From contig NC_088717.1 of the NCBI RefSeq assembly GCF_963576615.1, positions 22,781,344-22,845,343 of the forward strand: a stretch of 64,000 nt of DNA. Reading direction: 5' to 3'. A program made the translations under genes and the position numbers. Within the stretch, counting starts at the first letter, position 1. Every line of letters starts with the position of its first letter. Source of the stretch: Watersipora subatra. Taxonomy: Eukaryota; Bryozoa; Gymnolaemata; Cheilostomatida; Watersiporidae. Below are positions 19,346 through 61,715 of the stretch, one piece after another. The notes beneath the pieces are model-generated. The model was not told where the DNA came from. It saw nothing but the letters and a program-made list of their open reading frames with translations, and did not search any database.

Positions 19346-21034
19346 TTCCAAACAAGCCCATTGTGTCTATGAAGAACCCAGGGAAAAAATTAATGTCACA
19401 TAGAGAGCCAATAAAAATACAATAACATTCTATCTTGAGGGCATTTTCGCTGTTCAAAACTTCTTTTTGACTGCAATTTATTGTTAGCGATGATCAGTCG
19501 GGCTGAACCTAGCACGGCACCAAATTTTTTCTAACTTTAGATCTCTCGACTTTGGGTGATTTTATTGATCAATAGTAATACTGAGTCCTATTATTCACAT
19601 TTTACCAATAATAATAATGAATACCTGGCATAATTACTCAACATTTTGCTTGCATAGCTAGTTCAATGGGATTATTGAGGATTAGGTTTTACTTTGATCA
19701 TTCAAAGTAAATATGAACATTCTTTGTCTTGTAATACAGGTCTGTTGTAAAAACTAGCTCAGTTGATTAAATACTCTGGAGCGGCGAGCGGAAAAACTAA
19801 AATTTGGTTTGCTAACTATTTTTACCAACATAGGCCAGAGTACTGACAGCAATAACTGAATAGAACATGCTGTTTAATTAAAATGTAACATAAAAGATGT
19901 TTTATTTTGTTTTGGTAAGCTTGCAGCAAAAATGTTTGTTTTGCACCTAAAAAATTATTTTGCTCCAAATACTTTACGAAACAAGTGGTAATAACTTTAT
20001 TGATGCAAATTGTACTGAAATTATATTTGCTACGAGCACCAATGGAAATCAAAATAAGTAATAAAATTCTTACAGACCTTTTAAAAAACAATTGTCTTTG
20101 CTGCTACAAAACAGTGAGTAGACCCATAGGAAAAGAAGTACATGTTCTTATACTGCTAAAACTACCTTTGGCTCAGAAATCAGTTTTGAACAAAGCAATG
20201 AATTAAAATATGCATTGGCATAATGTTGTGATGGCTAGGAAACAAAGCTGGGTCTTGCACATGAGGGTAATTTAGCTAATGTAAATAGATTTCCTACACT
20301 ATCTAATTGAAAGCATCAATGCAAAATCTAAATACATGTAACTACTTACTAGCCATAGTACAGAGTGACCTTTTATTGTTGGTCCACATAGCATCCGTCC
20401 GCTTTGAGCATCTTTAAATTCTATTAAAGTGGATTTCATTTTGAGTTCCTTTGACATTTCAAAGTACTAAAATGGGCAAATACAAATTGCAATTTTAGGG
20501 AACTATTCAATTGAAGCCATATGCCACAAAAATTTCTCTACGTTGTTGGTAGAATATTCTATAAGTGCTAACATTACATTTGTTTTTATTTTTAAAGTTG
20601 ACACCAGTAATTTAGCAAATTATGTAGCTTATTAGTAAAACTTTTGTTAACATCGGCAAACAAACCGCATAAATGCTGCCCAATACCGAAGGCCAAAAAT
20701 AATAATATATATTGCTATTTATGTTTTTACCAATAGTTTTGCAGTTTTGTCTTTGTATTGCAATTTATATGCAACCTATTGTATTTCAGGTTTGAGCAAA
20801 TATGAGTTTTAGTAGTGTTCTGACCCTTCCTATCAGGTGGTTTCAACATTTTGAGGTAACAATGAAAAGCCATGAGTGGAATTTCTAACAAACTATTGCG
20901 CAACTTCAGCAGCATCTTATATATATCATTCGCCAAACTCATTGTCTTGAATCATCAAAGTTCACCAAATCATTCAAAAAGAAATACAAATATTTGTATC
21001 GCTAATTATTCTATAGCTTAAAGAATAGAGAAAA

Positions 21035-25359: not shown

Positions 25360-26030
25360 ACTTATGTGGTGAGTCTTTAGGTTGTGTAGGAATGAGAGGT
25401 TGACTGATTTCTTACAATCTATTTAATCAATTGACTAGCATGCAAGAAGGGGTAGCAAGCCATGCCACATTAGGATAATGAGTCACTTTAAGCACAAACC
25501 ACAATTGCATAAGTACATAGGTGATTTCTGCTAGTGAGAAGACCTTGGAGAATAAGACCACATTATGCAATTCTGTGCAGATTTTATTACTGCAGTTATA
25601 ATTGTGCTGCAATACTTCTAATAGAGTGAAAAGCAAATGAGCTGCCCAACCACAACCTCCTTCATTATAAAGTTACAAAGAATAGGAATAACAACAATAG
25701 CTTTCATTCGGAGGCTGAGGCTATTGAGAAGTAGAAAGTGAATTAGCTAAGCAGGCAATAGTAGAACACACATAATAAGAGCATAGGCATCATGATTGAC
25801 GTGTATGCAGGCAATGAATTTATGTACAATTTTACTACCAAACTTTTTAGTAAAGCTAGACACCTTTGGCTAAAAAGTGCTAGATATAGGTCAAAACAAG
25901 CCAGTGACAAATTTCATGTTATGCATCCTTGTTTGGACACTTTATTTCTAAAGTGTTTAATGCATTGGCAGTTTAACATAAAAGTGTGCCAAGAATGCAC
26001 AAAGAACGTTGACAGCAATAACTGCATAGT
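25360..26030. other. Spacer between the two duplication copies
   Basis: I see no supported gene. A short local repeat, GACAGCAATAACTG, occurs at about 26011 and 26033 at the start of the right copy. Confidence 0.4.
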
Positions 26031-29000
26031 ACTGACAGCAATAACTGAATAGAACATGCTCTTTAATTAAAATGTAACATCAAAATAAACGTTTTAGTTA
26101 GTTTTGGTAAGCTTGCAGCAAAAATGTTTGTTGTGCACATAAAATATTGTTTTGCTCTAAATACTTTACGAAACAAGTAATAATAACTTTATTGATGCAA
26201 GTGGTACTGAAATTATATTTGCTACGAGCACCGATGAAAGTCAAAATAAGTAATACAATTCTTACAGACCTTTTAAAAACAATGGCCTTTGCTGCTACAA
26301 AACAGTGAGTAGACCCATAGGAAGAGAAGTATATGTTCTTATACCGCTGAAACTACCTTTGGTTCAGAAATCAGATTTAAAAAGAGCAATGAATTATTAT
26401 AAGCGTTGGCAAAATGTTTGTGATGGATAGAAAACAAAGCTGGGTATTGCACATGCTGGTAGTTTAGCTAATGTAAATAGATTTCCTACACTACCTAATT
26501 GAAAGCATCAATGCAAAATCTAAATACATATAAATACTTACTAGCCATAGTACAGAGTGACCTTTTAATGTTTGTCAACATAACCTCCATACCGCTTTGA
26601 GCATCTTGAAATTATATTAAAGTTGCTTTCATTATGAGCTCCCTTTGACATTTTAAAGTATTAAAATGGGCAAATACAAGTTGCATTTTCAGAGAACTCT
26701 TCAATTCAAGTCATATGCCACAAAAAATTCCTCTGCATTGTTTGTAGTATATTCTAAAAGTGCTAACACTACATTTGTTTTAAATTTTAAAGTTGACACC
26801 AATAACTGAGCAAATTATGTAGCTTATTAGTAAAACTTTTGTTAACATCAGCAAACAAACTGCATACATGCTGCCCGATACCGAAGGCCAAAAATAATAA
26901 TATATATTGCTATTTATATTTTTACCAATAGTTTTGCAGTTTTGTTATTGTATAGCAAATTGTATAAAACCAACTGTATTTCAGGTTTGAGCAACTATGA
27001 CTTTTAGTAGTGTTCTGACCCTTCCTATCGCGTGTTTTCAACATTTTGAGGTAATAATTAAAAGCCATGAGTTGAATTTCTAACAAACTATTAAATGCAA
27101 GTCATTGCGCAACTTCAGCAGCATCTTATATATATATATATCATTCGCCAAACTCATTGTCTTGAATCATCAAAGTTCACTAAATCATTCAAAGGGAAAT
27201 ACATACATTTGTATCTCTAATTCTTCTATAGCTTTACCCTTTTACTGCCACCCATGTACAAATTAAGCTACCGGCCTACCGCCAGCCATTTCACCGAAAA
27301 TTGCCAATTTAGCTTCATGATATGTATACAATTTTGTTTCAACTTCAAAGTTTATCTAGAAACTTTTTGTAATATACTTTATTTTGCTAAAATTTTAACA
27401 TATTTCAATGCTAGTAGCTATTATAGTGCTATGCAAAAATCAATGTACCTTCACTTTGTGCATTGCTAAAGCTATGTGAAGCTACGATCGCTACAAAGCT
27501 AAAACGATCCTCTACAATGTCCCTTACACTTACAAAACTATTACTTTCACTATCATCAGAGTCACTGCTGCTACTTTAATTATCTGTGTAATCACAAAAA
27601 TCTGAATTTGAATTGGATATAATGTCATCAACATAAGTAATTATCTGTTTTCTGACTTGCGCGATACTTAACAAAACTTACACAAAAAATGTCCATTTCT
27701 ATTTTGAAAAGTCCCAAAAAAAATTTGAAACTGCTTGGTTATCTTAGACTAATCTTTTAGAAAAATCTTCGGACCACACTGACAATACCATAAAAGTTTT
27801 TAAATCATCAGTTATGTTTTCATCGGATAATAAAATTAGGTGACCATGTAATTGTTGGAAAATTCGCATAAATGTGCATACGGCAGTCGCTGATAGATTT
27901 AGCATAAATTCGCATACTGTAGGGTAAGAGTAAAAACAAACAAAATATTTGTCAATCTCCTGCCTCTAAACATGATATCTCAAATCTGATAATTACTCTC
28001 AGTGTTGGCTGAGTAACTAAAAGTGGTAATGGGTAACCATAGAAAACTATTCATTTTATATAATTATAATTATGCAATTGCTAAGCAATTGCTAAGCAAT
28101 TGCTACCATGACTCATAAAGACTAAGAAGAGTAATACTAAATCTCTATGCTATGCTACATTCCTTTGATTGGTTTGCACTATCTGTATTATGTAACCTGC
28201 CAATAATAGATGAATAGAACACAAAAGTGGCATAATGGTTTATGTAAGCGTTTGAAATAATACAATGCCTATAAAAATTGACAACTTTTCTTACTGAAGC
28301 TATGGCTATATCAAATTATCACACTACTTTTTGGCTCGCATGTATAATGTGCTATTTTACAGCAACTTATTGCATTATTGCATACCTTTAATTTGATGTC
28401 TGCAAATCAGTCTTTGGTGTGGGCCATCAATGCTTCTCATCCAGCAGTTATCTATAACTAAAGCGTCATTGATTATTTGCAACTATACAAAGAAAAACTA
28501 CTTTTGGGCATGTTGTTACATTCTTACGTCAGGTATACATTTGCTAGTTACAGTAAAACTTTGTACAGTATATTTTGTGTTGGTGAATTTAAAGTTTTGC
28601 TTATCATAGTAACTTTGCCAAAACGTCAAACATTACTACATTTCAAAATACAACCTTACTGATATAATGTTTATAGTTTTTAATCTATAATTATGTATAT
28701 GTTCAAAAATATTATAAAATTTGGTAGATGAAACCTTGATTATTTTGACATATTTTTTATGCAAACCAACGTGTAATTAGCAACATACCTTTTCTAGAAA
28801 TAACATCCAACTTTGTCTAATACTCTCTGCCATCTGATGAATATACTGGCAATAATGCTTACCAAGTTTCTACAAAAAATGAAAAGATAATTCAAATAGC
28901 ATAAACAGATATAAAAACCAAAATGAATGCAAAATACACATCTTAGTTCACTGGTTAGGTTTTTTTGGCAAACTTGAATATCTGCCTCCTACTACTGAAG

Positions 29001-33145: not shown

Positions 33146-33181
33146 GCGTGACTCATTGAACTCAAAACCCCTGGAATGGCA
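33146..33181. repeat. Left inverted repeat of the P/THAP9-like element
   Basis: CATTGAACTCAAAACCCCTG followed by GAATGGCA (33154-33181) is repeated as its reverse complement at 41331-41358 with one mismatch in 28 bp. Similarity probably extends outward to GCGTGACT, matching GCGTACTC across the MULE insertion point. The pair encloses the THAP exons and the C-terminal transposase exon, as expected for the ends of a transposon. Confidence 0.65.
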
Positions 33182-33280: not shown

Positions 33281-33460
33281 ATTTAACAGCTATGGAAGAT
33301 CACGAACACACTGCTAAATCAAAGGAACAGACTACTGAGATTAACACTAATAATTTATGTAAGAGAGAGAAGGGTCTAGGTGCGCAGTGCCATTGCTATT
33401 CCATGAACTGCAAAAACCGCAAGAATGGACTTTCAAAGGAAAGGGCATGACATTTCACAA
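33281..33460 (+). pseudogene. THAP-domain exon 1 (zinc-binding C-x4-C half), frameshifted
   Basis: After a CTAATTTCAG acceptor, ATG at 33292 opens a frame that reaches CHCYSMNCKNRKNGLSKER. The CYSMNC-x-NR core is the first cysteine pair of the THAP C2CH zinc module. The ATG frame then meets TGA at 33448-33450. One frame over, the exon ends MTFH plus two bases of the next codon at a GTGAGT donor, and that phase joins perfectly to FPNK in the next exon, the HKFP signature of THAP domains. So a one-base shift has occurred within the exon (or in the base calls). An upstream exon ends at 33225 (TTCAG/GTATTG). Confidence 0.7.
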
Positions 33461-33542: not shown

Positions 33543-34361
33543 CCAATGATATACAGCCCCCCAAGGATAGCCGACGGCTATCATATGGGCGGGGTTTAAT
33601 GATGGAGCTCTATTAGGATTGTGCTAGCCTGGGTTTCGGAGCAAACACAACTCTCGCGGGGCGGTCGCGTTGCCTTGTTAGGTTTTAGAAAACACGAATC
33701 GCTGTTATCGTTTCATTAGCTTATTCAGCCAGTAGACCCCACAGGTCACAATAGCAAACTTTGCTTTTCTGCAATGTAGGGGTAATACCTAACCAAAATA
33801 ATGTATTTATTCAAAATAAAACATTTCAAATTACCTACTTTTAGTAATTTTAAAATTAGTAAAGGTCGTAGTATATGCCTAAAGTTGAATATAATTACCC
33901 GAACAACGGCATTTTCTTTTTAGTTTTTGATTAATATTTTGCCACCCCTAATATAAAATGACAAAGTCTTTCATCGGTTTCACATTGTTTTACCTTGCCA
34001 ATAAAATGGGACAGCAGGCAAAGCTGTGCAGTGTAGTTTTCATACTCAAAATCTAAATGCAAAACCGAATTTGAGCTATTTTACGATTGTGACTATTAAT
34101 ATCACGAATGCTTGTGAATGGCAACTGACTGATCATAACAGTGACTATATTGGGATACTATATTTATTTGACAACAAAATGAATGCAACAGATAAATAAA
34201 ATAACCACGATAGTTCATAATATTCGTAAATTTACAAGGTGCTTTATTCAGCATATTTGTTTGTTCGGGTGCCGTGTTCGGGTTAATCCCAACAGAGCTT
34301 CATCATTAAACCCCGCCCATATGAGTGCCGTCGGCTATCCTTGGGGGCTGTATATCATTGG
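33543..34361. mobile_element. 819-bp DNA element in the THAP intron, 5-bp target duplication
   Basis: The inverted ends start CCAATGATATACAGCCCC and extend inward through AAGGATAGCCGACGGC and GGGCGGGGTTTAATGAT, about 80 bp in all with few mismatches. TACTG flanks both sides (33538-33542 and 34362-34366). The interior shows no transposase. The superfamily is uncertain: if the terminus is taken as CAGCCCCC the adjacent bases form a palindrome rather than a direct repeat, so the 5-bp reading is preferred. Confidence 0.75.
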
Positions 34362-34735
34362 TACTGCTACCAGTTAATTCTACTACACTAGTCACTGGGT
34401 GAGTGAGAGTCGATCAGTGTCACTACTGAGTGTACGAGTTTGACTGTATTTTGTCGGTGATTAGATAAATTTATAAGCTAGTGAGTGAAATGTTCTTCCT
34501 TCAGAACAAAGGTTTTTTATTATTTCAATTTGGAATTTTTTTTCTATTAAGATTTTTGAACTATAAACCATTAGGTTATTTCTAAATATTTATACTTGAA
34601 AAAAAAGTTTGCCGTGTCTATAATATCATTTATTGTTGTACCTGGATATAGCTAGCAGTAAGGAGATAACAGTAATAATACTATTGTTATTACTACTGTT
34701 GCTAACTAACTACTACAATTTCATTTTAATTTTTA

Positions 34736-34746
34736 GATTTCCAAAC
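34736..34746 (+). pseudogene. Start of THAP exon 2, cut by the LTR element
   Basis: After the TTAATTTTTAG acceptor the exon reads A-TTT-CCA-AAC, giving F-P-N after the split lysine codon. It resumes at 39005 on the far side of the LTR retrotransposon; CAAAC at 34742-34746 is the target site duplicated at 39000-39004. Confidence 0.75.
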
Positions 34747-35030
34747 TGTAATAAGTACTTTTATCCTTGTATAGTGTACCAGCTAACTTGACACCAAAAC
34801 CGCTTGTATTCGAATGACACAATAATAGGTATAACATAACGAATGACGTAACGAATGGCGTAACTACTAGGTAGGAAACACGAAAACGGCAATCTATGAG
34901 ACAGCAATTACTTGTACACAGAATGAGTAATAGTATTACATGCAGTAGTAAGAGTAAATGATATACATGTAGGCTTATAAAATAAGACATGCACGCATAG
35001 GTTACTATACATGTATATACATAGACTACA
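34747..35030 (-). repeat. 3' LTR of the LTR retrotransposon
   Basis: On the minus strand it begins TGTAGTC and ends TTATTACA. It is directly preceded on that strand by AGGGGGAGG, a polypurine tract as expected at the 3' LTR junction (35031-35039 on the plus strand reads CCTCCCCCT). It is a direct repeat of 38715-38999. Confidence 0.9.
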
Positions 35031-35050
35031 CCTCCCCCTGATCTTCAAGA

Positions 35051-36337
35051 TCAATTAAAACCAGCTACATAAAAATCTGGGGGTTTCCTAGCCCTAGCTG
35101 GTCTAGTGGCATTGTTAGCTGCAGTTGAATGATTGTTGTGACTGTCTTTAGTTACAGGTGGAGTTTCAACGTTTGTTAAACCCTCAGTTGACTCATTAGT
35201 ATTAGCTATGTGTAACTCACAGTCTAAAGTAGCTGGCTGTTTATCAACTCTCCAACAAAATCTTATGTCTCCTATATGGCGAGCCATGTCATCCACTTTA
35301 ACTGCTGTGTTGGAGACCAAGGAAGTTACCTTACCAGTTTTCCACACTGATGTGCACTTGGCATTACTTGGTTTTACATATACCTGGTCACCCATTTTGT
35401 AAGGGTTTAAACTAATGTCCCGTTCAGCCGATATTCTAGTAGTTTCTTGTTTCTGAGGATTGTAATTAAACAATCTCTGAAATGGCACAACACCATCGGC
35501 ATTAGGATCATTGTTGTACCAATATAGCATGTCATTGACAGTGCCACCGGAGCGGGCAAGCATGCGTTTAATAGTACGATGATTGCGTTCTATCACTCCA
35601 TTGCCAGAAGCTCTATAAGCACAGCTGTAGATAAGATTTACACCCTATTTGTCAAGAAGGGGCTTGAACGATCTATAGCAAGGTCCATTATCTGACAATA
35701 TTTCCACTGGAGACCCACGCTCACAAAATATGTGGTCTAACTGTTCCATGACGGCGGGAGAAGTTTCGTTTCTTAACTTTCTTCAAATTGCAAACCTGCT
35801 CGGTCTACAGTCAATAACAGTCAAGTACGGGATTCCCTGGTAGTGTGTTACATCAGTTGCTAAACGATACCAATCACTTTCCGCCTCTACTTGACCAGTT
35901 TCCCAATGAGCTGGTGCAGGATCGACTCGTTTGCACACATGACAGTGCTTCACTACTTTTTCAATGTCTTTCTTTTTTACAGTAGGCCCCCACCTTTCTG
36001 TGGCTAGATACCATGTACGATCAGCGCCTAGGTGATGAGCTTCATGTAGATCATGCAGTTTCCCTTCTATACTGCCAGAAATTGTTAGATTGACAGCACA
36101 TACTCGTTTCTGCAACAATTTGTGGGGAACTCTAGTCAGTTCATCAGCTTTATTGTCTTCAGACTTTATGACAGTTATTTGTAAGACCAACTGATACTCA
36201 CTGATTAGATCATTTAGTAGATTGAGGCGTCGTTTCACCAGAATTTCACTGAGGCCGCTCAACTTTGGTCTTTTACAGTCCTGTAATACAAATTTCACCC
36301 ATCCAAATACTGTGGCAGAGTCTGTCAAAAATGTCAC
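35051..36337 (-). pseudogene. RNase H end and integrase region of the LTR element, two stops
   Basis: The frame opens with TDSATVFGWV, the end of the RNase H domain. An integrase zinc-binding module follows, with the histidine pair in the HEAHHLGADRT segment and cysteines in HCHVCKR. The first catalytic aspartate lies in LATDVTHYQ, the second in EILSDNGPC and the glutamate in ERNHRTIK. Two in-frame stops interrupt it: TGA at 35783-35785, in a position where tryptophan would fit, and TAG at 35645-35647. The C-terminal 180 codons form a variable tail. All pieces share one frame, so decay is by substitution here. Confidence 0.85.
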
Positions 36338-37577
36338 ATTTTTGAGATTTCATAGCCATATTGATTGCTTTGACAACTCCTTCTAACTTTGCCATGTTGA
36401 TATGGGCCCCATCATTGACACCTCTAAACCAACTTGCATCCTCTACTATCCGATTATCAATCTCTACACATGCTCCTATTGCCAAGCTGCTAGCATCGCA
36501 CCACACTTTATCATTCTCAGATGCAGGTACTTTCCATTGGCCAGTTACAGGGTCATGGCGGTGCATACTGTTATCAATCTCCTCTATTTTTTTCTTGACA
36601 TTACTGAGTACCTCATCGTCCCACCCATAAGCGTTAATTTCTCTTTTGAGATAGCTACATGCTACTCGCAACCACATTGCTACTGGATAGTGACCAATAT
36701 ACTTTCCACATATTGAGTACAGTTCTCGATTGGTCACAGTGGAATGCACTTCTGGCAGCTCAAAGTCTCTACTCCACTTGAGAGTACCGCTATTAGAAGC
36801 CTCTACTCTCAAACCCAGTACTCGTGCGCTTGACAGACTTTCTGGTTCTTTTGACAGTAAGCCGTACTTCTGCAGATGATTCTTCACTTTCAACGCTGAC
36901 ACAACATCTTCATTTACCACAATATCATCTATGTATTGATCTGTGCCTTTGGCTATCTTCTCATGCATTGACAAAACCTTTGCTAAGATAGGAGACATTA
37001 TCTTAGGTGCCACATTCAAGCCAGACCCTAACCTTGTCATCACATATAACTGACCATTGAATCGAACAGCTTGAAACCGTTGTAGTGAACTGTCCACATG
37101 AAGTTGTAGGTATGCCTTTTTCAGATCTAACATACACACATTGTCCCCTAATGTTCTCCACTGCCTCAGTTTTTCTTGACATATAGCTACGTCATTTCCA
37201 GGATTGCTGTTCACATGCTGGTTTAACTCCCTGCTATAGTCCATCACTGGTCTCACCTTTCTACCTTTGTTTGACTGAAAGACTGCCATCAGTGGAATTA
37301 TGCCACTTACGTTGCCATGAATCTTCACACCATGTAGCTCTAGCCAGCCATTAGAGATCCGCTGCTCAATCTCACAGCTGTATTGTTCTTTATAGTCTGT
37401 GTTTATACCATACTCAGCGCATTGATTTTTCAACTCTGGTTCGTGGCTTTTCCATTTCCATACTACCGTCCACTTAGTTCCATCAAATACAGCTTTAAAG
37501 TCAGTATCTTCGATAGTCAAACAGTCTGTCTCAGGCTTTTTTAACTCGGAGTTATCTTCATATAACATAGCAACCAC
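36273..37577 (-). CDS. Reverse transcriptase and RNase H of the LTR element
   Basis: 434 codons are open. The reverse transcriptase shows RPVMDYSRELN (fingers), MLDLKKAYLQLHV with the first catalytic aspartate, GLNVAPKIMS, and QYIDDI with the catalytic aspartate pair. RNase H begins at KVWCDASSLAIGA (first aspartate) with a glutamate in KLEGVVKAINMAM. The RNase H then continues in the frame of the downstream integrase segment, so a frameshift separates them near 36300. It normally acts in cytoplasmic particles to copy element RNA into DNA. This copy cannot make a complete polyprotein. Confidence 0.88.
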   Translation of the reverse strand: MVAMLYEDNSELKKPETDCLTIEDTDFKAVFDGTKWTVVWKWKSHEPELKNQCAEYGINTDYKEQYSCEIEQRISNGWLELHGVKIHGNVSGIIPLMAVFQSNKGRKVRPVMDYSRELNQHVNSNPGNDVAICQEKLRQWRTLGDNVCMLDLKKAYLQLHVDSSLQRFQAVRFNGQLYVMTRLGSGLNVAPKIMSPILAKVLSMHEKIAKGTDQYIDDIVVNEDVVSALKVKNHLQKYGLLSKEPESLSSARVLGLRVEASNSGTLKWSRDFELPEVHSTVTNRELYSICGKYIGHYPVAMWLRVACSYLKREINAYGWDDEVLSNVKKKIEEIDNSMHRHDPVTGQWKVPASENDKVWCDASSLAIGACVEIDNRIVEDASWFRGVNDGAHINMAKLEGVVKAINMAMKSQKCDIFDRLCHSIWMGEICITGL

Positions 37578-37610
37578 AGGTTGTGATGCACATCCAAATG
37601 TTACCCTTTC

Positions 37611-37910
37611 TCATGCATGTATTGTCACACCTTTATGTTTGTAGATTTCTTCGGCACCAAGACTCAACCCGCACCCACATACTAACTCAGGTACTACCAA
37701 GCAACGTAACTGAATAGTGTCACAATGATTTATAGCTACATTGATGTCAGCTTCTTCACAGCATTGCGTGCTATTTCCATTTAACATCTTTACTGTCCTT
37801 TGTTGCCCTCTTATGCCAAGACCTAATTTACGAACAACACTAACTGAGATTACCGACTGGTCACATCCACTATAAATTAGAGTTTTTATGGACAGTCTAT
37901 GAAGCCTCAC
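37611..37910 (-). pseudogene. Aspartic protease region of the LTR element
   Basis: The segment reads LIYSGCDQSVISVSVVRKL, in the position of the retropepsin active-site motif D-[ST]-G-x-x-x-S-[VI]-[IV]. Here tyrosine replaces the catalytic aspartate, so the enzyme would be inactive unless that reflects a mutation in this copy only. It is followed by a conserved GLGIRG and ML-NG stretch. It lies between gag and reverse transcriptase, as usual. Confidence 0.7.
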
Positions 37911-37933
37911 AAATATAATTGGCAGCGTCGTCT

Positions 37934-38692
37934 CTAGAGTTGGTTGTTGGGAAGAGCATGCGACGCTGAGGCTCCCCCATCCTCGTTTCCCTGCTGCTCC
38001 TTAGCTGTCCAGTTTTTGCTTATATGACCGATGTTATTGCGGTTGTAACCACAAGTTGGCTTACTGGAAAAACTTTTCATTTTTTTCCTGTAAGACAATG
38101 TCTGGAAATATGTCCAAAACCTGAGCAAGCATAGCATTGAACACCCTTTGCTGGTTGATTAAGTGTGTCATGTGTAGCAGCACTGCATACATAAGATGAC
38201 GCACCTGAATTTGAAGAAATAATTGCTCGAGCTCTAGTTACAATTTCCCTTAACCCCATCTCCTCTACGGCAGCCATAGCTTTAAGCTGGCATGCTACCT
38301 CTGATGGCAGCCCTGACATATATGCACATTTGAGAAGGGGTTCTGGATTAGTTTGTCCCGTAGATTTTACAAGCCTTTTCAATCTGCACGTCTGCTGTTT
38401 TGTTATCTTGCAAGGCTCGCTCACGTAGTTGACTGTAGGCACTGTATATATTTATGCTGAATGCCGTCAGTAGTTCTTTCTTCAGCTTAACATAGTCACC
38501 CTTCACATCCTCAGACAGCTGCTCATACAAAGCAAATGCTGGGCCATTTAAGATTAGCGATACAAATGTTTTAAGATGTTCTATTTTTTGTAGTTCAGCC
38601 ACCAGTTCTAGTTTGCTGATCCAAGTGCCGAACTCTCCACTGATATTATTGTCCTCATAAGATTTGATTAAATCAGATAGTTTTACTACCAT
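37934..38692 (-). pseudogene. gag region of the LTR element, frameshifted
   Basis: ATG at 38692 starts an alpha-helical capsid-like segment (KTFVSLILNGPAFALYEQL). The frame breaks near 38400 and continues in another frame to the zinc knuckle CYACSGFGHISRHC (C-x2-C-x4-H-x4-C). A second, degenerate knuckle follows in a third frame near 38060, with its later cysteine positions lost (CGYNRNNIGHISKNW). At least two frameshifts therefore break gag. The start codon is only 22 nt downstream of the 5' LTR. Confidence 0.8.
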
Positions 38693-38714
38693 TGTTTCTT
38701 ATAGCCGAAATAGC

Positions 38715-38999
38715 TTATAATAAGTACTTTTATCCTTGTATAGTGCACCAGCTAACTTGACACCAAGACTGCTTGTATTCGAATGACACAATAATAGGTA
38801 TAACATAACGAATGACATAACAAATGGCGTAACCACTAGGTAAGAAACACAAAGACAGCAATCCATGAGACAGCAATTACTTTTACACAGAATGAGTAAT
38901 AGTATTACATGCAGTAGCAAGAGTAAATGATATACATGTAGGCTTATAAAATAAGACATGCACGCATAGGTTACTATACATGTATATACATAGACTTCA
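38715..38999 (-). repeat. 5' LTR of the LTR retrotransposon
   Basis: A direct repeat of 34747-35030. On the minus strand it starts TGAAGTC and ends TTATTATA, the terminal CA having become TA. Between this end and the gag ATG there are only 22 nt, and no obvious TGG-type primer-binding site complementary to a tRNA 3' end follows the LTR. Confidence 0.9.
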
Positions 39000-39004
39000 C
39001 AAAC

Positions 39005-39153
39005 AAAGCAACTGAGAACTCTTGTTATTTACAACGGTATCGCAACCACAGAAGAGTGAATAAGCCTGATTCTTGGGCACTTATCTGCAACAAACATTTA
39101 AATGATTCATGTTTTGACAACAGGTTAAAACGTTCGACTGAAGTCATTTAAAG
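39005..39153 (+). pseudogene. THAP exon 2, remainder (C-x2-H half)
   Basis: Continuing in frame from the interrupted FPN, the text includes KATENSCYLQRYRNHRR, then WALICNKHLNDSCFD and LKRSTEVI. W-x3-C-x2-H and the following F-D...L-K are the second half of the THAP C2CH zinc finger, which binds DNA at transposon ends in P-type transposases. The frame stops at TAA 39149-39151, two bases before an AAAG/GTAAAA donor. The canonical AVPTIF box that normally closes a THAP domain is absent or beyond the splice site. Confidence 0.75.
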
Positions 39154-39948
39154 GTAAAAAAATTTCAATGTTGAATGATGCTTTTCAATGTTTGAATTTA
39201 GAACCATATTGTCAAGCGCAGTGCTGCAAGGTTGTTCTACTTAAAGTAGATATATCTAAAAAAATATAGAAACCTCAAACAGCACACAAAACTGTGACAG
39301 CTGCCACAGCAAGTGCTTATGAATATGTTTGCAGCTTAACAGTTGTGTGCTCTGCTCTCTGCGATTCTTCATCTTAGTTTCTGGGATTTAATCTCCAGTG
39401 CATAAAATATGCTGTCCTTTTTGTCGTGTGTTAACTGTGTAAATGTTTTTTTCATTTCCTAATTGTTGTAATAAAACTACATAATACCCCTGCAAATCAT
39501 AAATTCCAAATTGATAGCAATAACTTGCAATTTAGAACACAAAACATCTTTTTGAAACAAAGAAAATCAATTTAAATCAAAAAAAATCAATAGAAATCTT
39601 TTAGAAATCAATAGAATTTTTTGATTTAAAAAAATCATCGATTTTTAACCACCCTGCCTACAACACAACAGAGTAAGCCATGGTGAATCCTTTGATACTA
39701 AATAACCGTTATGGGAATTTTGTTGCAAGTCAACCTTTAAGTTTTATGCCTAATATGGGTGTGAATGAATTCCAGTGAAAATTGCCACATTTTCATTTTA
39801 CATAGCGATATGGTAGCATTTTGAGCTGTTTTATTTTCGCTTATTTTATTAGTTGTATTGTTGTATATTAAGGGTACTATGTTTATGTGAATAAGAGACT
39901 CATTTTTGTTGATTTTATGTAATGGTTATAATTGATGCTTTTGTTTAG
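39154..39948 (+). other. Intron or deleted centre of the P-like element
   Basis: Non-coding. It contains an A-rich AAATCAAT/GATTTAAA simple repeat at about 39540-39650 ending TTTTTAACCACCCTGCC, a type of sequence often seen at ends of other elements. It ends in the TTTTGTTTAG acceptor of the next exon. The region where the transposase catalytic centre should be encoded is missing. Confidence 0.5.
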
Positions 39949-40517
39949 GTGATTGGAATAATAATCCTACTGTTACTCATTTTAAGGCTACCTTTCGCAA
40001 ACTTATCAGCAAATGTGGTCCAAAATCAGATGCTAGTAAGACAGGTAATGTTACTGCTCAAAACCGGTTTTTCATCATACAGGCTACTCCAGAAGTTAAT
40101 CAGTTTGTGGAACTCAATGCTTTCAGATGTCAAATTTCTGTTATATGTAACAGTATAGTCTATATAGCTGGCTACACTTTGCAAAAGCTAACTAAAGTGC
40201 TGTCACGTGACATTGGCCGTCAGTCGCTGGTTACCACTAAGTCAAGTATCCAGTACCGACATCTCTATGCTCTACTCAAGCTACTAAACAATGGATGATT
40301 GGTGCGTCCATCAGACGATGTCATCAGGATTCTGCTAGTTGCAGATTGATACTTTCGTATTAATACAAAGCCAGATCCACTCCATTGTGTGGTGTATGTT
40401 ATCAGTAGCGTAGGATCTAGTGATGTGCTATGCCTTGGGAAACACCTTACGGATACGGTAGATGGCATATCTAACCATTGCGTCATTGATGACAAACCTT
40501 ATTCAGTCGTTTTATGA
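39949..40517 (+). pseudogene. C-terminal P-element/THAP9-like transposase exon with internal stops
   Basis: The frame reads GDWNNNPTVTHFKATFRKL, then VYIAGYTLQKLTKVLSRD, then LLNNG followed by TGA at 40296-40298, LVRPSDDVIRILLVAD, TGA at 40348-40350, and YFRINTKPDP up to TGA at 40515-40517. W-N-N-N-P-T...F, Y-I-A-G and GGLV-x-PS-x-D-V are conserved blocks in the C-terminal region of THAP-containing P-type transposases. The first TGA replaces the second glycine of that GGLV block, pointing to single-base decay. It follows an AG acceptor at 39948. Confidence 0.75.
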
Positions 40518-41330
40518 TCTCCGACAGCATCATTATGCTAAAATCCTACACTCAAACTGCAAGGTGCATCTTTGTGGCATACAATATTAAAGTAGTACTT
40601 TTTAAAGGCCAGTAACAATTTAATCAAAGTAATATTCATCTGCAGCTGTTGTTGTGCTGTTATTCCTAATCTGATTTAGTTCTAAGAAACTCTGATGCAC
40701 CTTGGCTCAATATCCAGTGCTATGCAAATCTCCTTTTACACAGTTTTTTGTAACGTGTATGTATAAGTTTAATCATCTGATTACACAAATTCCTGCATTT
40801 CCTTGTTAGCATTATTTTGATTTTCCTTTATTACAACTGTTTTTAATTTCCGTTTAGTTGTTGCAGTAGTTCATTCCATCTTTTACAGATACAGTATTAT
40901 ACATATCATACATTCGTAAGCTATTATCACGTAAATCTTGAAAACAGTTTCTGTTTTGGAATTAATATATATATCCATTATAATTAATATAATGGAACAG
41001 TTGTTGTTTGCCTGAATATATCATTTGCTGGGTTTATGCATCTGTAATACAACAGTTTGTATGAATAACATGGTCCACGAAAATCTATTTTACATCTACT
41101 CTTCATTTGATATATCCCACTCCATATGTTATAAATAGGTTTTCTTCTATCAGGGCACTCTAAACGTTGTGTAGGAGTAGCTTTCATTAACACCCAGCTG
41201 GAAAATAACTATTCAACATGTACATTTCTGTCATTTTACACCGTTTGTTTACAAACGGAACTAGCATTCGATTAGCTCTCCAATATGGCGCAAACCTTAT
41301 GTATTATTATTAACGTACAAGTCACGTGAT
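40518..41330. other. 3' region of the P-like element
   Basis: Non-coding and AT-rich; no further exon recognised before the right inverted repeat at 41331. Confidence 0.4.
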
Positions 41331-41358
41331 TGCCATTCCAGGGGTTTTAAGTTCAATG
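41331..41358. repeat. Right inverted repeat of the P/THAP9-like element
   Basis: TGCCATTCCAGGGGTTTTAA then GTTCAATG is the reverse complement of 33154-33181 with one mismatch. Four bases later begins the 9-bp target duplication of the MULE-type element, so the outer part of this repeat probably continues after 47424. Confidence 0.65.
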
Positions 41359-41370
41359 TTTGTGAGTACG

Positions 41371-41940
41371 GGTCAGGTATAATTGCAGTGGCTCAAAACC
41401 TGGTCAGTTTCTGGGTAGTTTTGTAGGGGTGGAGCTTAATCCGAAAATACAAAAGCTTTAAAGTTAGTCGTACTGAGCCACAGTTTGTCGTTTTCAGCCA
41501 CTACAAACGTTTAGTTGTTGAGAAATCGAGTTATCTTTTATCACGTAAGCTTAATATCACGTTAGCATCTTTTTCAAGCAAATCTTTAAATACAAATATG
41601 AGTTATATTAGCAAATTAAAATAAAGTATTTACATAGCGGTTTATCGTAGTTTTTTCTTGTTGAAAATAAATGGTAACATGCTCATGAAACGGAAAAAAA
41701 TCTTCTCAAAAATACACCATTAATTATTCTGTATTCGTTTATATTTGAAAAATAGTTTTATGTTTTTTTAATATAAGTACACTTTTGTAAAGCGGTATTA
41801 CATGAAATATTGAAAAGTTACGATTACCTATGTTCTGAACAAATAAAATGCACATTTAAACGATTGTCCACTTTGTTACCATTCTGAGAGCCTAAAATGA
41901 TTAGATTTAATTTCACTGTAAATATTAATATTAGCATCTC
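41371..41940. repeat. Left TIR of the Mutator-like element
   Basis: Begins GGTCAGGTATAATTGCAGTG; matches 46850-47415 in reverse complement, nearly identical at the tip and diverging inward with small indels. Confidence 0.85.
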
Positions 41941-42612
41941 GTTAGGCATTGATTGTAAAATGAAGGCAACAGAAGACAACAGTTTTTTATCTTTACTGTA
42001 TTTGCTGCAAGCACACACTTTAACAACTAACTTTGTATTACTCCTAAGTCTCAACTGTAGCACCTCTTGAAACAACGACAGTATATAGCTACCTAAGGAA
42101 CAACCATTTAATTGTGTATCTCAAAGTTTATTTGAACTTGTTTCTACAATGGTGCGTTGTAAGTAGCACTGCCAGGCCTAGGCTGTATCTCATCTGTTTG
42201 GTTCACAAGAAATGTAAGAGAGGAGGCAAGGTAAAGCAAATTTTTGTAGTCTTCTGCAATGCAGGGCAGTTATATTTTTGGACTAAACAGCCTGCCTGTG
42301 ATCAGTAGTCCCCAGTAGTCAGAGTCGGTCACTGCTTGCAATTTGTCTTAAAAAATTAATTGAAATGCACTATGTATTCATATTGCTTCAACCCTAAAAT
42401 AAGACCTCAGTGGGTCATCATGTATTCGTAACTGACTATTTGTATTCGTCATTTCATCTTCTATATAGGCCTACCTACAAGCCTCCCGTGCCTGTAGTCG
42501 GCAATCGTGTCGGTAGGTTATCGAAGCCTCGATAGCTGAATGAAATGATTGCTGACAACAGTCAACTTCTACGAAGAACCTGAGGGCCTACCAAATATAT
42601 TTTTAATTGCAG

Positions 42613-42759
42613 TGCATTTAAGCATTATGCCACTTGTTCTTGCCTCATCGTTAGATGAGGCTGAGCAAGCCATCAAAGCCCATGAAATCGAATATGGCAA
42701 CAAGTTTTACACATACCATAAGGACGGCATATTCAACAAGCATGAAATACTTTTTGAAG
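42613..42759 (+). CDS. MULE-type element gene, exon 1 (N-terminus)
   Basis: A TTTTAATTGCAG acceptor precedes ATG at 42627; the coding part reads MPLVLASSLDEAEQAIKAHE and IEYGNKFYTYHKDGIFNKH before a GTAATC donor. A short helix with S-L-D-E-A-E-x-x-I followed by K-F-Y-T-Y resembles the start of CaRF-like N-terminal modules of animal MULE proteins. It ends in phase 1 (GAA G), matching the exon at 43459. The frame is also open upstream of the acceptor to 42549, so an alternative first exon is possible. Confidence 0.55.
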
Positions 42760-43458
42760 GTAATCTCGCACTTTTTCTCCACTGCCTAATTTGTGATCTT
42801 GTGTTAAAAATGAACATTTTATACCTCGGATATTTTAGTGTAACCTTGATTGTGAAGTGTAACCTTGATTGTAAAATGTAGGCCTATGCTTGGTTGTTGT
42901 GCAATAGAAGTACTTGTCAATAGTAGCTTATATGTTTTTTCTGCTGCAGTTTTATGAAGCCCTTTTTGGTTTGTTTTTGTACCATGTGATCTATGACGTC
43001 ACAGGCCCTACTTGAAGCAGAATTGACACAATTTTCATCAGTTCACTAGCAACTCACACTGGATACACACCATCTACCTCTCAGCAATAAAGGATTACTC
43101 TCTATAGACACTCAACTCTTAAGCTTAATTTAACGAAGTGGATATTCGTGTATATACAGACATGCAGCGGATTACAATCAAGCTTGTAGTGCAGCCTTGA
43201 TTAGAAGATATACATAGGCTTCAATGTACAAGCATTGGCATGCAATTGAAATGACATTAAAAATCATTGTATATACTAATAACTACAATCAAGCAAGCAA
43301 TAAATGTATCAAGCGTCATATACACGCAGCAGTTAGTTCTCAATTGAGTGTTAGCAATCAAGTAAGGCTAAAAACCTACAACGTCTTCAGCCAATGAATC
43401 TAAAAAATCTGTACCACGTTTCTTAATTTTAAAATTTTATCTGCTCTAGTTTAGCAAG

Positions 43459-43619
43459 GTGAAGATATTTGGAGAGGTAAGAACGTCATTCATGACAGTC
43501 AAGGCTATTTATGTATGTATGGCGAAGAAAAAGAGTATGGCGAAGAAAAAGAGTATGGTTGCATGTACGGCCCTGAAAGACAGCAAACCCAGAAGGAAAA
43601 GTACAAAGAACAGCGGAGG
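43459..43619 (+). CDS. MULE-type element gene, exon 2
   Basis: With the acceptor TTAGCAAG at 43458, the exon joins in phase to exon 1 (GAA G/GT GAA GAT) and reads EDIWRGKNVIHDSQGYLC, an imperfect in-tandem GEEKEY duplication, then GCMYGPERQQTQKEKYKEQR. The donor is GTAAGT. The C-x-x-G-P-x-R followed by a lysine-rich helix is the type of basic segment expected for DNA binding or nuclear import. Choosing 43455 as the start would break the frame, which decides the acceptor. Confidence 0.6.
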
Positions 43620-44459
43620 GTAAGTTACCGGTACACCAAGAATATTTTACTCAGCCTATTATAAGGGATATTTTTTGACAGCAAAACTCAGTCTTTGTAT
43701 GTCCAATATATTTAGACAGGGCTATCCTTCCATGTCTTTGCAAATGCACAGATAGTATAGTATGGATTTTAAATAAAGATGATAAATAATATTTATTACT
43801 TTTATGGATTTTAATTTGTCTTATTTCTGAAATAGCTATCTTGTAACAAAAGCACATGTGCACATTTATATTCTTGTAAGCCGGAAATCAGAGAATGCAG
43901 TAAATCTAAGTCTACACTACTGTGAGGGTTGCGACATGTCTAAGCTGTATTCGATACTTTGCCTTCGGTCTCACAGTACATCAAAGTTCAAAAACATTTT
44001 CTCATTTTAATTCATCTACACTCTCATAGAAATTCTGTAGAATTGCAAAGAAACAAGGACTTGATTGGAATGCTCAGATACCATATCCTTGACCCAGTAG
44101 CCAGTGAAGTTTATGGCAATCTGTCTCATTTTCCTTGAGAATTTCTCATCCCGAGGCCTCACACATGTGCCAGATAGTGTTATATCTCAGTTCACACCTT
44201 TGGTTAAACTTGGACGTAATATTTTATTTTACATTTAATATTTCACACCTAAAATTTGCAAAAACAATCATTAAAAGCAAGATAAAATGAATGCTTATTT
44301 CGGAGCTCTGGCAACAAGGCCTTTGTTTGGACTCTTTTGCCAATTTGAATTTAGTTAGATTGTGCCCACAAATATAAATATGCTATGCATGTGCATAAAT
44401 TCATATATGTTGTCACATGGTGTCGATATACATAATTTACGTATTGTTTACATTTTTAG

Positions 44460-44519
44460 TCACAGAATCCAACAAAGAGACCGCATCCTCAAGACAATAC
44501 ATCTGATAGTAACACGGAG
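44460..44519 (+). CDS. MULE-type element gene, exon 3
   Basis: A 60-nt exon between TACATTTTTAG and GTACTC, phase 0 to phase 0, encoding SQNPTKRPHPQDNTSDSNTE, a polar, proline-containing linker. It joins exon 2 (phase 0) without a frame break. Confidence 0.5.
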
Positions 44520-44812
44520 GTACTCACTCACATAACCAGCAAAAAACCTTTTAGGCAAATCGGGCAATATTAATTATGGTTAAATGTGGAATTTCATTGG
44601 TAGGCGGATCTTCAAGCCATTTATAGCCCAAGATTAGTAGCTAGAAAAACGTGAAGTTATAGTAGGATAATGCAGAAAAACCCCTTGTGTAGGCAGGATT
44701 AGGTTTTAGAAACAAATTATTTGCTGCCAACTGTGATATTTATTAAGTTGCCTGTTCACACCCAGCCAAACGTTCAATGCCTCGAGCATTCTGATTTATA
44801 GCTCAAGATAAG

Positions 44813-44965
44813 GAGGAAACACAGTGCTTGCTCAGGACGGGTAGGAGTAAGAGCAGAGGCTATGCAAGCTTCCATAGATGTGGGGAGAATCTACGAAATG
44901 CCACAAACGACAGCATTATAGCTGTAAATCAGACACCTGATGTTACTTTCATACCTAACAATCCG
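44813..44965 (+). CDS. MULE-type element gene, exon 4
   Basis: A 153-nt open exon between CAAGATAAG and GTGAGT, phase 0 to phase 0. It encodes EETQCLLRTGRSKSRGYAS, FHRCGENLRNATNDS and IIAVNQTPDVTFIPNNP. After it no continuing exon is recognised inside the element: two MITEs occupy part of the remaining 1.9 kb. The splice-compatible run of four exons suggests the gene fragment has not decayed much since it was trapped or truncated. Confidence 0.5.
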
Positions 44966-45069
44966 GTGAGTGGTAATATTCAGTAACTCAATTTTAAAAT
45001 TAGAACCCTGTTGCATGATGCTTTCGTGTCACTTTAGTGTAAGTACTCAGTGTCTGAATTGGAGAGAGT

Positions 45070-45350
45070 TGTGCAACGATGCTCCCAAATCTTTGATTCC
45101 AGATTTGTAAAGCATATCAAATCGCTGGCATGCGTTTTGCTCCAAATCAAATCACTTAGAAGGGTGACTGCTCAGCTTTCAAATAAAATGAAATTAAAAC
45201 CGTCATCCACTATGTAATTGATGGTTTTGATTTAATTTACAAGCTGGGTAATCCATTTTTATGGTGCTTTGGTGCCAATCTCATGATTGGTGATTTAATG
45301 TGATTTGCAAATTTCTAATCAGGATTTGGGAGCATCTTTGGAGTTGTTAT
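45070..45350. mobile_element. MITE inside the Mutator-like element
   Basis: GATGCTCCCAAATCTTTGAT at about 45078 is repeated inverted as ATCAGGATTTGGGAGCATC at about 45324-45342, and the arms extend inward about 60 bp with mismatches (AATTTGCAAATCACATTAAA type sequence). Non-coding. Confidence 0.55.
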
Positions 45351-45866
45351 GAACTCTTGAGAGATTGATAACAAGGTGCCACAACACCATCCGATTCATA
45401 GACTGAGTACTTGGACTAATGTCGCTGTTGTCTTCTACAAGTCAACTCTATGGGCTAAGTCGGTTGAGCAATGGAGGATCGGAGAAGATATATGAAGCCA
45501 GGAACTAATTGTGAAATAAAACTACTGTAAAAACAGTAATTAAGTCAGGAACTAGCAAAAGCAGATTTGCCCGGTTCTTTGAGATCGCCAAATTAACTTC
45601 CAGCTAATCATAATGTCCAATGTAACTTTCCAATCTACTTCATTAAATTAACAAATAATATTCCTGTCAAAGTCAAAAATCGTCGCAAATAATGCCACTT
45701 GAATACTGCATTCACAGTACTTTACAAGTTCAAGGAGATGTAAATACACATGCTATGATTGTTTTTTTTTAGATCAACGATCTCCAAGAGGAGTTTGCAG
45801 GGAGTAAGAAATGACAGAGCATAAATGCTTCCTGAGGCTTTCTAATACATGCAATATCTAGATAGG

Positions 45867-45994
45867 CATAGAACAAGTTTGTTCCCTATAGCTGTGGGTA
45901 AACTGGCAATGAAGTGAGGGCAAGCCAGAGGGCATCTGGCGTGCCCTCTACCTCATTGCCAGTTCATCTGCAGCCATAGAGAACAAACTTGTTC
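45867..45994. mobile_element. Palindromic MITE with TAGATAGG flanks
   Basis: The arms AGAACAAGTTTGTTC...AACTGGCAATGA are nearly perfect inverted repeats over about 60 bp each, leaving almost no loop. TAGATAGG occurs immediately on both sides (45859-45866 and 45995-46002). An 8-bp duplication would suit a hAT-type MITE, although the right end appears to lack the last bases of the left terminus. Confidence 0.65.
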
Positions 45995-46849
45995 TAGATA
46001 GGAATACTTTTATATGCAAAAACTCGAACTGTTTCAGCTTGTACTGTGCTCAATTTTGAGTGAATATATTGATCAAATTAAAACATACCTGCATACATAA
46101 AACATTCAGGATTTTCGACGCTTTTTTTTTAAAAATAACCCAGACTTATATTCACTTATTTTCACACATCTACATGTAGTATATGTAGCCCTTTTCTACT
46201 GCGTTATTCTGTTCTCATTTGTGCTTATTAAAGGCCTTTATGGCTTTGGTGCTGATGTGATAGTAATTACGTTATGTGCAACATTTTCTTTTCATATCAA
46301 ATAAAGTAAATATATTAAACTTTACAATTTATCATGATAGATTCATCCGATAACTGAAACAACCTACTTCCCATCATTGTTCAAGTGGTCCATCACCAGA
46401 CATTTTGTCATTGCGCATCGACTTTTCAAACAATATATGTTGTACAACGTCAGCAACCCCAATAGACATACATTATGCTAAAGGTTTTGTGTGTGCTGCC
46501 CTCTGATTTTCCAGAATTGGCTACATTGTGCTTGTGGAGGTAACGGGAAAGCTGATAACAATGGTGCACAACAATTGCCACATGCATTATTTATATTGGA
46601 GCAAGAAAATACATCATCATGCCAACAGTAAAAAATATTTTTTGCCCAACAAATAAAAAAAATCTTTTGGTCACACAATGCTGTACATAAATAATAAATA
46701 TATAAGCAAATTGACAAATGAATACTACAGAGTGCGGTCATGTTCAAAATCTAAATAAAGTTAGTTGTTGGAGAAGTCAGTGTTTGCAGTAAAGATAAGA
46801 TAGACTAATGTCTTCTGTTGCCTTTTCACAATCTTTGTCTTATGATATG

Positions 46850-47415
46850 CTAACATAAATAGTTACACTAAAATGAAATAGAATCTTCTTTAGCTCGCAG
46901 AATGGTAGCAAAGTAGACAATGGTTTCGATGTGCATTTTATTTAGTTAGAACATAATCACAAATATTCAATAACTTGTGTAATACCGCGTTACATACATG
47001 TAAGTGCAATCATATTACAACGTAGTAAAATATTCTTCATTCACACTGTATAAACGAATACAGAATAATTAATGATGTATTTTTGAGAAGATTTTTTTCC
47101 GTTTCGTGAGCCTGTTACTATTTCGTCTTAACACGACAAAACTACGATAAACAACTATGTGAATACGTTATGCTAGTTTGATGAAATATCTCATATTTTT
47201 GATTAAGGATTTGCCTAAAACGATGTTTATGCTTTATTTTGTTACAAAAAATAAAAAGATTACAGACTCAATTTCTAACCGACTAAACATTGGCACATGC
47301 TTAAAACCTAGTCGCTTAGTGCCGACAAAACATTTGCACTTCCGGATTAAGCTCCACCTCTACAAAACGACCCCGAAACTGACCAGGTTTTGAGCCACTG
47401 CAATTATACCTGACC
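46850..47415. repeat. Right TIR of the Mutator-like element
   Basis: Reverse complement of 41371-41940; ends TATACCTGACC directly before the second copy of GTGAGTACG. Confidence 0.85.
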
Positions 47416-60689: not shown

Positions 60690-61332
60690 ATTATTTTAAG
60701 TACCCAAAAAGCCCCAAAAGCTCAGTGTATGCATTTCCTGCTAGCTGCTTGCATCCACTGATGATGTGTTGGATGGTCTCAGGTGCATCTTTGCACAGTC
60801 TGCATCTAGGATCGTCTCTAGTGTGATAGATTTTTGTTTGGAGTTGCCTTGTTGGGAGCACTTGCTCCTGGCCTGCCATGATTAGCGACTCTGTATTGGC
60901 CGTTAGGTTTCCTTTGTTCAGCCACATATATGTCTGGTGAAGATCGCCAACCTTAGATATTTGCCGGTGGTAAGCACCATGAAGAGGTTTCGTGTGCCAG
61001 TCAATTTCCTCATCATCAGGGCGAAGCTCCATTGTAAGAGCAGCTAGCAACTTATCTGAAGTGGCCATGGAGGCTGCATAGGCTTTGATGCTTTGCTCTT
61101 CCTCTTTCACTGTCTGCTGTACACTTTTGATTCCCCTACCGCCATCTTTCCTATCGAGATACAATCTAGTAGTACCAGATTTTGGGTGGAGTGCTTCATG
61201 CATGGTCAGCAGTTTACGAGTTGCTATATCTGTTCCTTGATGGCTTCCTCAGTCCACTTTATTATGCCTGCTGGATATCTTATTACTGGCAGTGCGTAGG
61301 TAATTATTGCCATGACTTGGTTATGGCAACCC

Positions 61333-61400
<68 letters not shown>

Positions 61401-61665
61401 GGTTTGTGGTTGATGTTGCTTTGCATAATCCCCAAGTACTTGTACCCTTCTTCTATATCTTTGATGGTACCATTTGGCATTCTTAGGCCATCTGTGAGCA
61501 TAGAATGGTCTCTCTTAAGAATTAGCCTTCCACATTTCTCAATACCAAAGGTCATTCCGATGTCCTTGCTGTACCTGAGTGAGGTGTATTAGCGAATCGA
61601 TGTCCCTTTCTTTGTTAGCGTACAGCTTGATGTCATCCATGTAGAAGAGGTGGTTTACATGGATA
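60690..61665 (-). pseudogene. Non-LTR retrotransposon, reverse transcriptase to C-terminus, broken
   Basis: On the minus strand, beginning at about 61660, the text reads NHLFYMDDIKLYAN (YMDD catalytic motif), then after a frameshift FGIEKCGRLILKRD and YKYLGIMQSNIN. A (TA)n tract at 61336-61401 interrupts the frame. It resumes with MHEALHPKSGTTRLYLDRKD, GGRGIKSV, WHTKPLHGAYHRQ and a zinc-type CRLCKDAPETIQHIISGC. These are the RT and C-terminal blocks of a LINE family widespread in aquatic invertebrates. The copy ends at a stop near 60691, without the last segment present in the copy at 61716. Confidence 0.8.
61336..61401. repeat. (TA)n microsatellite inside the LINE frame
   Basis: Mostly pure TA; it separates the YKYLGI block from the downstream part of the minus-strand LINE copy. 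Confidence 0.8.
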
Positions 61666-61668
61666 GAC

Positions 61669-61713
61669 ATATATATATATATATATAAAAAAAAAATATA
61701 TATATATATATTT
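61669..61713. repeat. (TA)n with central A10 run at the junction of inverted LINE copies
   Basis: ATATAT on both sides of an A-run, located exactly between the minus-strand LINE copy and the plus-strand copy. Confidence 0.8.
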
Positions 61714-61715
61714 GA

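Follow-up and report, generated by a model that had tools for sequence, protein, structure and literature searches.

The stretch of DNA analysed here (the window; 64,000 nucleotides) derives from the bryozoan Watersipora subatra and was placed by genome match at C10:22781344-22845343 of the 783.7-Mb assembly, which fits chromosome 10 of tzWatSuba1.1; the alternate haplotype is GCA_963576605.1 (both PMC12902671). Within it, at 34747-38999, lies a 4.25-kb long terminal repeat (LTR) retrotransposon, which is on the minus strand, a correction to the original prediction, and which interrupts a THAP exon in what appears to be the remnant of a P-type DNA transposon (Table 1). Directly after its 5′ LTR the element carries a candidate primer site that is complementary to the 5′ end of tRNA-Phe.

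A Pfam scan gave the domain order gag-protease (PR)-reverse transcriptase (RT)-DUF7047-integrase (IN), with an H2C2 zinc site and with the PR and RT scores under their cut-offs. By this predicted domain content and order, the element is a Ty3-like LTR retrotransposon of the DUF7047 lineage. An RNase H (RH) family, part of the Ty3/gypsy order PR-RT-RH-IN, was listed only for its relatives. The 60 best matches in a PDB profile search with RT were retroviral-type RTs, albeit weak (best E 2.6e-5), and searching proteins with the RT frame gave 281 relatives at E values up to 0.001, among them ones from Hydra, Aplysia and Nymphon. The same frame is 100% identical, across 84% of the query, to the NCBI model P0001 of W. 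subatra, which joins pieces of the element into a single 764-aa protein. Gag occupies two overlapping frames, its ATG lying 23 nt inside the right LTR. Since stops and frame changes separate the frames of the element, this copy is very likely dead. Among 26 pattern stretches in IMG/VR, we found no relative. It shares with Ty3/gypsy elements (Metaviridae) the two LTRs, the polypurine tract (PPT), the gag-PR-RT-DUF7047-IN arrangement, the H2C2 site, a weak MLV-type IN C-terminus and a 5-bp duplication. It differs from them in a primer site that pairs with the 5′ end of tRNA-Phe rather than with a tRNA 3′ end, and in a leader of only 23 nt before the gag ATG.

Textbook LTR elements pair with the 3′ end of a tRNA, and annotation programs look for sites of this kind. 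No TGG, the complement of the tRNA 3′-CCA end, was found beside the LTR. The 5′ LTR is followed by AGCTATTTCGGC and then by TATAAGAAACAATGG, and the 12 nt of AGCTATTTCGGC complement tRNA-Phe nt 1-12 exactly (tRNA letters from PMC11706605 and PMC10505166); a northern probe for the 5′ end of Drosophila tRNA-Phe finishes in the same 12 letters (PMC7038984). The match starts at position 1 of both the tRNA and the site and takes in tRNA nt 8-12, which belong to the 5′ region only and not to the 3′ acceptor strand. In the W. subatra genome the tRNA-Phe gene start GCCGAAATAGCTCAGTTGGG has 34 exact matches, of which a cluster on C4 holds 31, and at eight such loci ARAGORN called a tRNA-Phe (GAA) from that base in seven and an unassigned tRNA in one. 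With up to one mismatch allowed, the 12-mer occurs in the window at the primer site only, and none of 20,000 random 18-mers of window composition gave a 12-nt match to tRNA-Phe. The match does not extend past nt 1 into the pre-tRNA 5′ leader in five tRNA loci, and on this ground the leader was rejected as a part of the primer. An RNA fold of the LTR plus leader was no better than that of shuffled sequences (z -0.71). The C4 cluster itself (L033-L060; 16.998-17.053 Mb) is a large array of tRNA-Phe genes with spacings often near 611 bp, and one of its units, in L040, reads as tRNA-Ile (tat).

We next turn to the recurrence of the site. In 16 copies of the window element's own family it is exact in nine, has one change in six and two changes in one. 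For more distant relatives, 150 of 492 candidates from a DUF7047 search were scored, and 16 loci were chosen for long frames and different scores, eight as 7-kb stretches and eight as 1.3-kb pieces without an LTR-pair check. All 16 of these DUF7047-type loci contain the site, always after ACA (12 exact, 4 with one change), and RT identity to the window element was 45-57% in the eight that were compared. In the seven loci with clean LTR pairs the site directly follows the 5′ LTR, whose ends are fixed by exact 5-bp duplications; in the eighth 7-kb locus (L070) the repeat is not LTR-bounded and the site was located by motif search. Each of the eight 1.3-kb pieces has the site, and the best match of the reversed motif has 2-4 mismatches. 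The elements were sorted by eye into seven families, on the basis of LTR end and leader, and one exact representative of each was compared: identity was 54% over the last 12 nt ahead of the junction and 28% over the first 12 nt past the site, with column 13 already mixed. Across these seven families, whose LTRs and leaders are unlike, the conserved stretch thus sets in at the LTR end and does not reach beyond tRNA nucleotide 1. The site pattern was also met in 33 stretches of IMG/VR and at least 116 of prokaryotes, and an RT-fragment tblastn over 113 of these loci (L086-L198, 80 of them prokaryotic) yielded no relatives.

The identification of the element as an LTR retrotransposon was borne out by its paired LTRs with TG...CA ends, the PPT at the 3′ LTR, the general role of which is well known, and the domains. 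The two LTRs differ at 15 of 284 bp (13 transitions, 2 transversions; 94.7% identity), a Kimura two-parameter distance (K2P) of 0.055, against 0.007-0.061 in eight other pairs of the family, values that give relative age only. On the plus strand the left LTR ends TG...CA and the right TA...CA, a point change in the right copy, as other 5′ LTRs of the family keep the CA end on the element strand. Both window LTRs are longer (284 bp) than those at 28 other LTR loci (272-278 bp). A search of the genome with the LTR scored 40 matches among 157 candidates, which is a lower bound. As originally predicted, CAAAC stands at 34742-34746 and 39000-39004, and the copies abut both LTRs exactly. Exact 5-bp duplications were read by eye in all nine LTR pairs examined (18 LTR flanks), a count that leaves out one further candidate pair at C3:11.26 Mb; two of the nine pairs share flanks, giving eight independent insertions. 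Among six solo LTRs, likewise read by eye, four have exact duplications and two have one mismatch. In two loci (L012, L014) an LTR lies between a PPT-like tract and a primer site, an arrangement like that of tandem copies with a common LTR. On C7 (L026/L068; 43.560-43.564 Mb), a second copy of this LTR family interrupts a further copy of the P-type element, at a point corresponding to window 40959-40984.

A Ty3-like integrase would have inserted the element through a 5-bp staggered cut at CAAAC in THAP exon 2, and on the evidence of the duplication and the joined exon this is almost certain. The exon 1 donor reads CACAA|GTGAGT at 33460 and exon 2 opens after AG at 34737. With the element and one CAAAC removed, the spliced frame reads TFHKFPNKATENSC...WALICNKHLNDSCF, in agreement with the intron phase and HKFP signature that had been proposed. 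The joined frame, together with an alignment to the THAP1 structure 2jtg that runs straight over the joint (E 9.2e-5), upholds an insertion site defined to the base. The assignment to THAP (PF05485) held, with one proviso. The joined exon scores 27.6 bits (E 5.2e-6; cut-off 23.9) with the CxC part included, and falls under the cut-off without it (22.1 bits). The CxC part of exon 1, where a stop follows KERA, does not share the frame of HKFP, and the good score is thus reached only through one frame jump. Neither a protein search with the joined exon nor a comparison with a phage collection gave any homologue or match. The original prediction had also placed the insertion in the DNA-binding domain of another transposon's transposase. 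The exon is indeed a THAP exon of a P-type remnant, but this host copy is broken: exon 1 has a frame jump, and a transposase core was not found. The domain struck by the insertion need therefore not have been a working DNA-binding one; the target may already have been broken at insertion or may have broken since. Given a broken transposase copy the nesting is ordinary, and nested transposons are commonplace.

The host shares with P-element/THAP9-type DNA transposons the THAP domain, a C-terminal RNase H-like fragment and terminal inverted repeats, and differs from them in being broken and in two features that we did not find. A full RNase H-like transposase core was not found, the C-terminal fragment alone being seen, in the plus-strand frames of 39000-41400 (read by eye and partly scanned with Pfam), and the inverted repeats are not flanked by an 8-bp target duplication (GCGTGACT versus TTTGTGAG). 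Because of the missing duplication we call the host a P-type remnant and not a proven P element. The missing duplication, and a C-terminal fragment that scores under its PF21789 cut-off, would also suit an origin of the THAP exon in a host gene or a Kolobok-type element, since Kolobok transposases can likewise carry THAP. We consider this origin improbable in view of the PF21789 fragment downstream, the 28-nt inverted repeats and a dispersed paralogue on C7 (43.558 Mb, in the flank of L026) whose match stops at the base corresponding to 41358, with different flanks beyond, which looks like the end of a mobile element. In the C7 paralogue, the one P-type paralogue that we encountered, window 34581 is joined to 39795; positions 34582-39794, and with them exon 2, are gone, which disqualified it as a paralogous empty site. 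It also carries its own insertion of the LTR family described above. In the 13.7 kb upstream of it, only short, chance-like matches to exon 1 or to the left repeat were seen. The end sequence of the MITE-like element in the THAP intron also abuts this paralogue.

Since the first base that is added to the primer becomes the end of the LTR, a primer 3′-OH is expected at tRNA nt 12, or at nt 10 if integrase trims two bases, and as an intact tRNA has no 3′-OH at nt 12, a fragment is the simplest reading. We infer that minus-strand DNA may start at the 12-nt site after the 5′ LTR, paired with tRNA-Phe nt 1-12, that the primer may be a short 5′-terminal tRNA-Phe fragment cut in the D arm, and that the whole fragment may be copied to its 5′ end during plus-strand synthesis, which would account for the end of conservation at tRNA nucleotide 1. 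We hold this chain of fragment, cut and copying to be moderately likely, and its combination with integrase insertion at CAAAC is the likely best explanation of the locus. Several points weigh against fragment priming: the case is built on DNA sequence; a 12-nt primer would be shorter than the known tRNA primers; the sampled families have a common ancestry and all belong to a single species; the 16 loci are a selection and not a random sample of the 150 scored among 492; and an LTR pair was not established in nine of the 16. In addition, 100 of 285 gag windows in the own family vary as little as the site or less, so that the site is kept no better than gag and its recurrence within the family is weak evidence. 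Its recurrence between families is strong evidence. The 12-nt motif could instead serve packaging, the leader or integrase end recognition in an otherwise ordinary nested insertion, its identity to tRNA-Phe being a coincidence. The motif does abut the LTR end that integrase reads, the ACA of that end is conserved as well, and the primer itself is deduced from sequence. We nevertheless think coincidence unlikely: the chance that a given 12-mer equals a 5′ end among 46 tRNA species (an assumed number) is 2.7e-6, and that of finding it anywhere in a tRNA, on either strand, 3.6e-4; the motif follows the LTR without any offset, conservation reaches no further than tRNA nt 1, and no tRNA 3′-end site (TGG) adjoins the LTR. 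Less probable still is priming by an unusually folded tRNA-Phe, either intact or longer than such a fragment: its 5′ part would pair here while another 3′ end, in a 5′ half trimmed on the template or a Ty3-like bipartite contact, starts synthesis. Bipartite sites (Ty1, Ty3) and the half-tRNA primer of copia exist (PMC5371799), yet the LTR boundary would put the first added base at about tRNA nt 12, where an intact tRNA offers no 3′-OH. Self-priming of the Tf1 type, in which the 5′ end of the RNA itself serves as primer, would fit the lack of a tRNA 3′ complement beside the LTR, and we reject it as very improbable: the best Watson-Crick pairing between the 18 nt after the LTR and the LTR is 5 nt, a length that 98% of shuffles also attain (allowing G-U pairs gives 7 nt, a value without a shuffle comparison).

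Table 1. Features of the nested retrotransposon and of its host transposon remnant in the window.
Feature	Position	Strand	Basis or remark
Left terminal inverted repeat, P-type remnant	33154..33181	+	28 nt, 96%
THAP exon 1 (CxC and, past a frame jump, FHK), beginning at first ATG of CxC frame; donor GTGAGT	33292..33460	+	
MITE-like element in THAP intron, TACTG flanks	33543..34361	.	~86-nt inverted ends
THAP exon 2, left of insertion	34737..34746	+	
Target duplication CAAAC, left copy	34742..34746	+	sequence
3′ LTR, 284 bp, TG...CA	34747..35030	-	repeat alignment, family copies
Polypurine tract GGGGGAGG (element strand), adjoins 3′ LTR	35031..35038	-	sequence; similar tracts at other family 3′ LTRs
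Integrase, C-terminal part	35051..35644	-	MLVIN_C weak, under cut-off
Integrase, H2C2 zinc-binding part; stop then closes frame	35783..36349	-	PF17921, 33.1 bits
Reverse transcriptase and DUF7047	36273..37610	-	PF23088, 66.4 bits; PF00078, 24.1 bits, under cut-off
Aspartic protease part	37611..38000	-	weak, under cut-off
Gag, second part, weak zinc knuckle	38077..38451	-	zinc knuckle under cut-off
Gag, first part	38348..38698	-	no Pfam match; resembles start of P0006
Candidate primer site AGCTATTTCGGC, directly after 5′ LTR	38704..38715	-	exact complement of tRNA-Phe nt 1-12
5′ LTR, 284 bp	38716..38999	-	repeat alignment
Target duplication CAAAC, right copy	39000..39004	+	sequence
THAP exon 2, right of insertion, stop near its end	39005..39153	+	
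C-terminal fragment of P-type transposase	39936..40298	+	PF21789, 19.6 bits, below cut-off 24; two relatives
Right terminal inverted repeat, P-type remnant	41331..41358	-	C7 paralogue ends at same base

Other repeats are present in the window. Immediately to the right of the P-type remnant, 41371-47415 is an element of ~6 kb whose long inverted repeats are degenerate (79-91%) and which has GTGAGTAC at either side; related stretches were found in L022 and L066. A long tandem array with an 11-bp period runs from 4632, and an inverted repeat of 325 nt (95%) lies at 60720-62050. A 1.2-kb direct repeat (19836-21019 and 26025-27234; 89% identity) is not LTR-bounded, and it was discarded as a control LTR pair, not being LTR-like.

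The primer of copia is roughly a 39-nt half of initiator Met tRNA that pairs near its cut end, and the primer site of the IAP/IAPE endogenous retroviruses pairs with the 3′ end of tRNA-Phe. Known non-standard primers include the tRNA-independent start of Tf1 and the half-tRNA of copia (PMC5371799). As in copia of Drosophila, the primer in the bryozoan element would be a piece of tRNA whose 3′ end is new and internal, at a site complementary to a part of the tRNA other than its 3′ end; unlike copia, the site corresponds to tRNA-Phe, is 12 nt long and runs from nucleotide 1. IAP/IAPE share tRNA-Phe as the primer species, but have the usual 18-nt site (PMC7472051). The open-access literature searched (including PMC5371799, PMC7472051, PMC7515703, PMC4033280 and PMC12471100) contained no report of such a primer site, which is weak evidence without most subscription papers and Repbase. 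As far as this literature goes, the site would point to a previously undescribed form of tRNA-fragment priming, related to the half-tRNA priming of copia.

Taken together, our results slightly favour the view that a whole lineage of DUF7047-type elements is primed by a 5′ tRNA-Phe fragment of about 12 nt, produced through a D-arm cut, which would be a third tRNA-based way beside the tRNA 3′ end and the anticodon-stem half of copia. If this is true, primer choice is more flexible than thought, and elements now filed without a primer site can be re-read. In addition, 5′ tRNA fragments would gain a concrete role in genome parasites.

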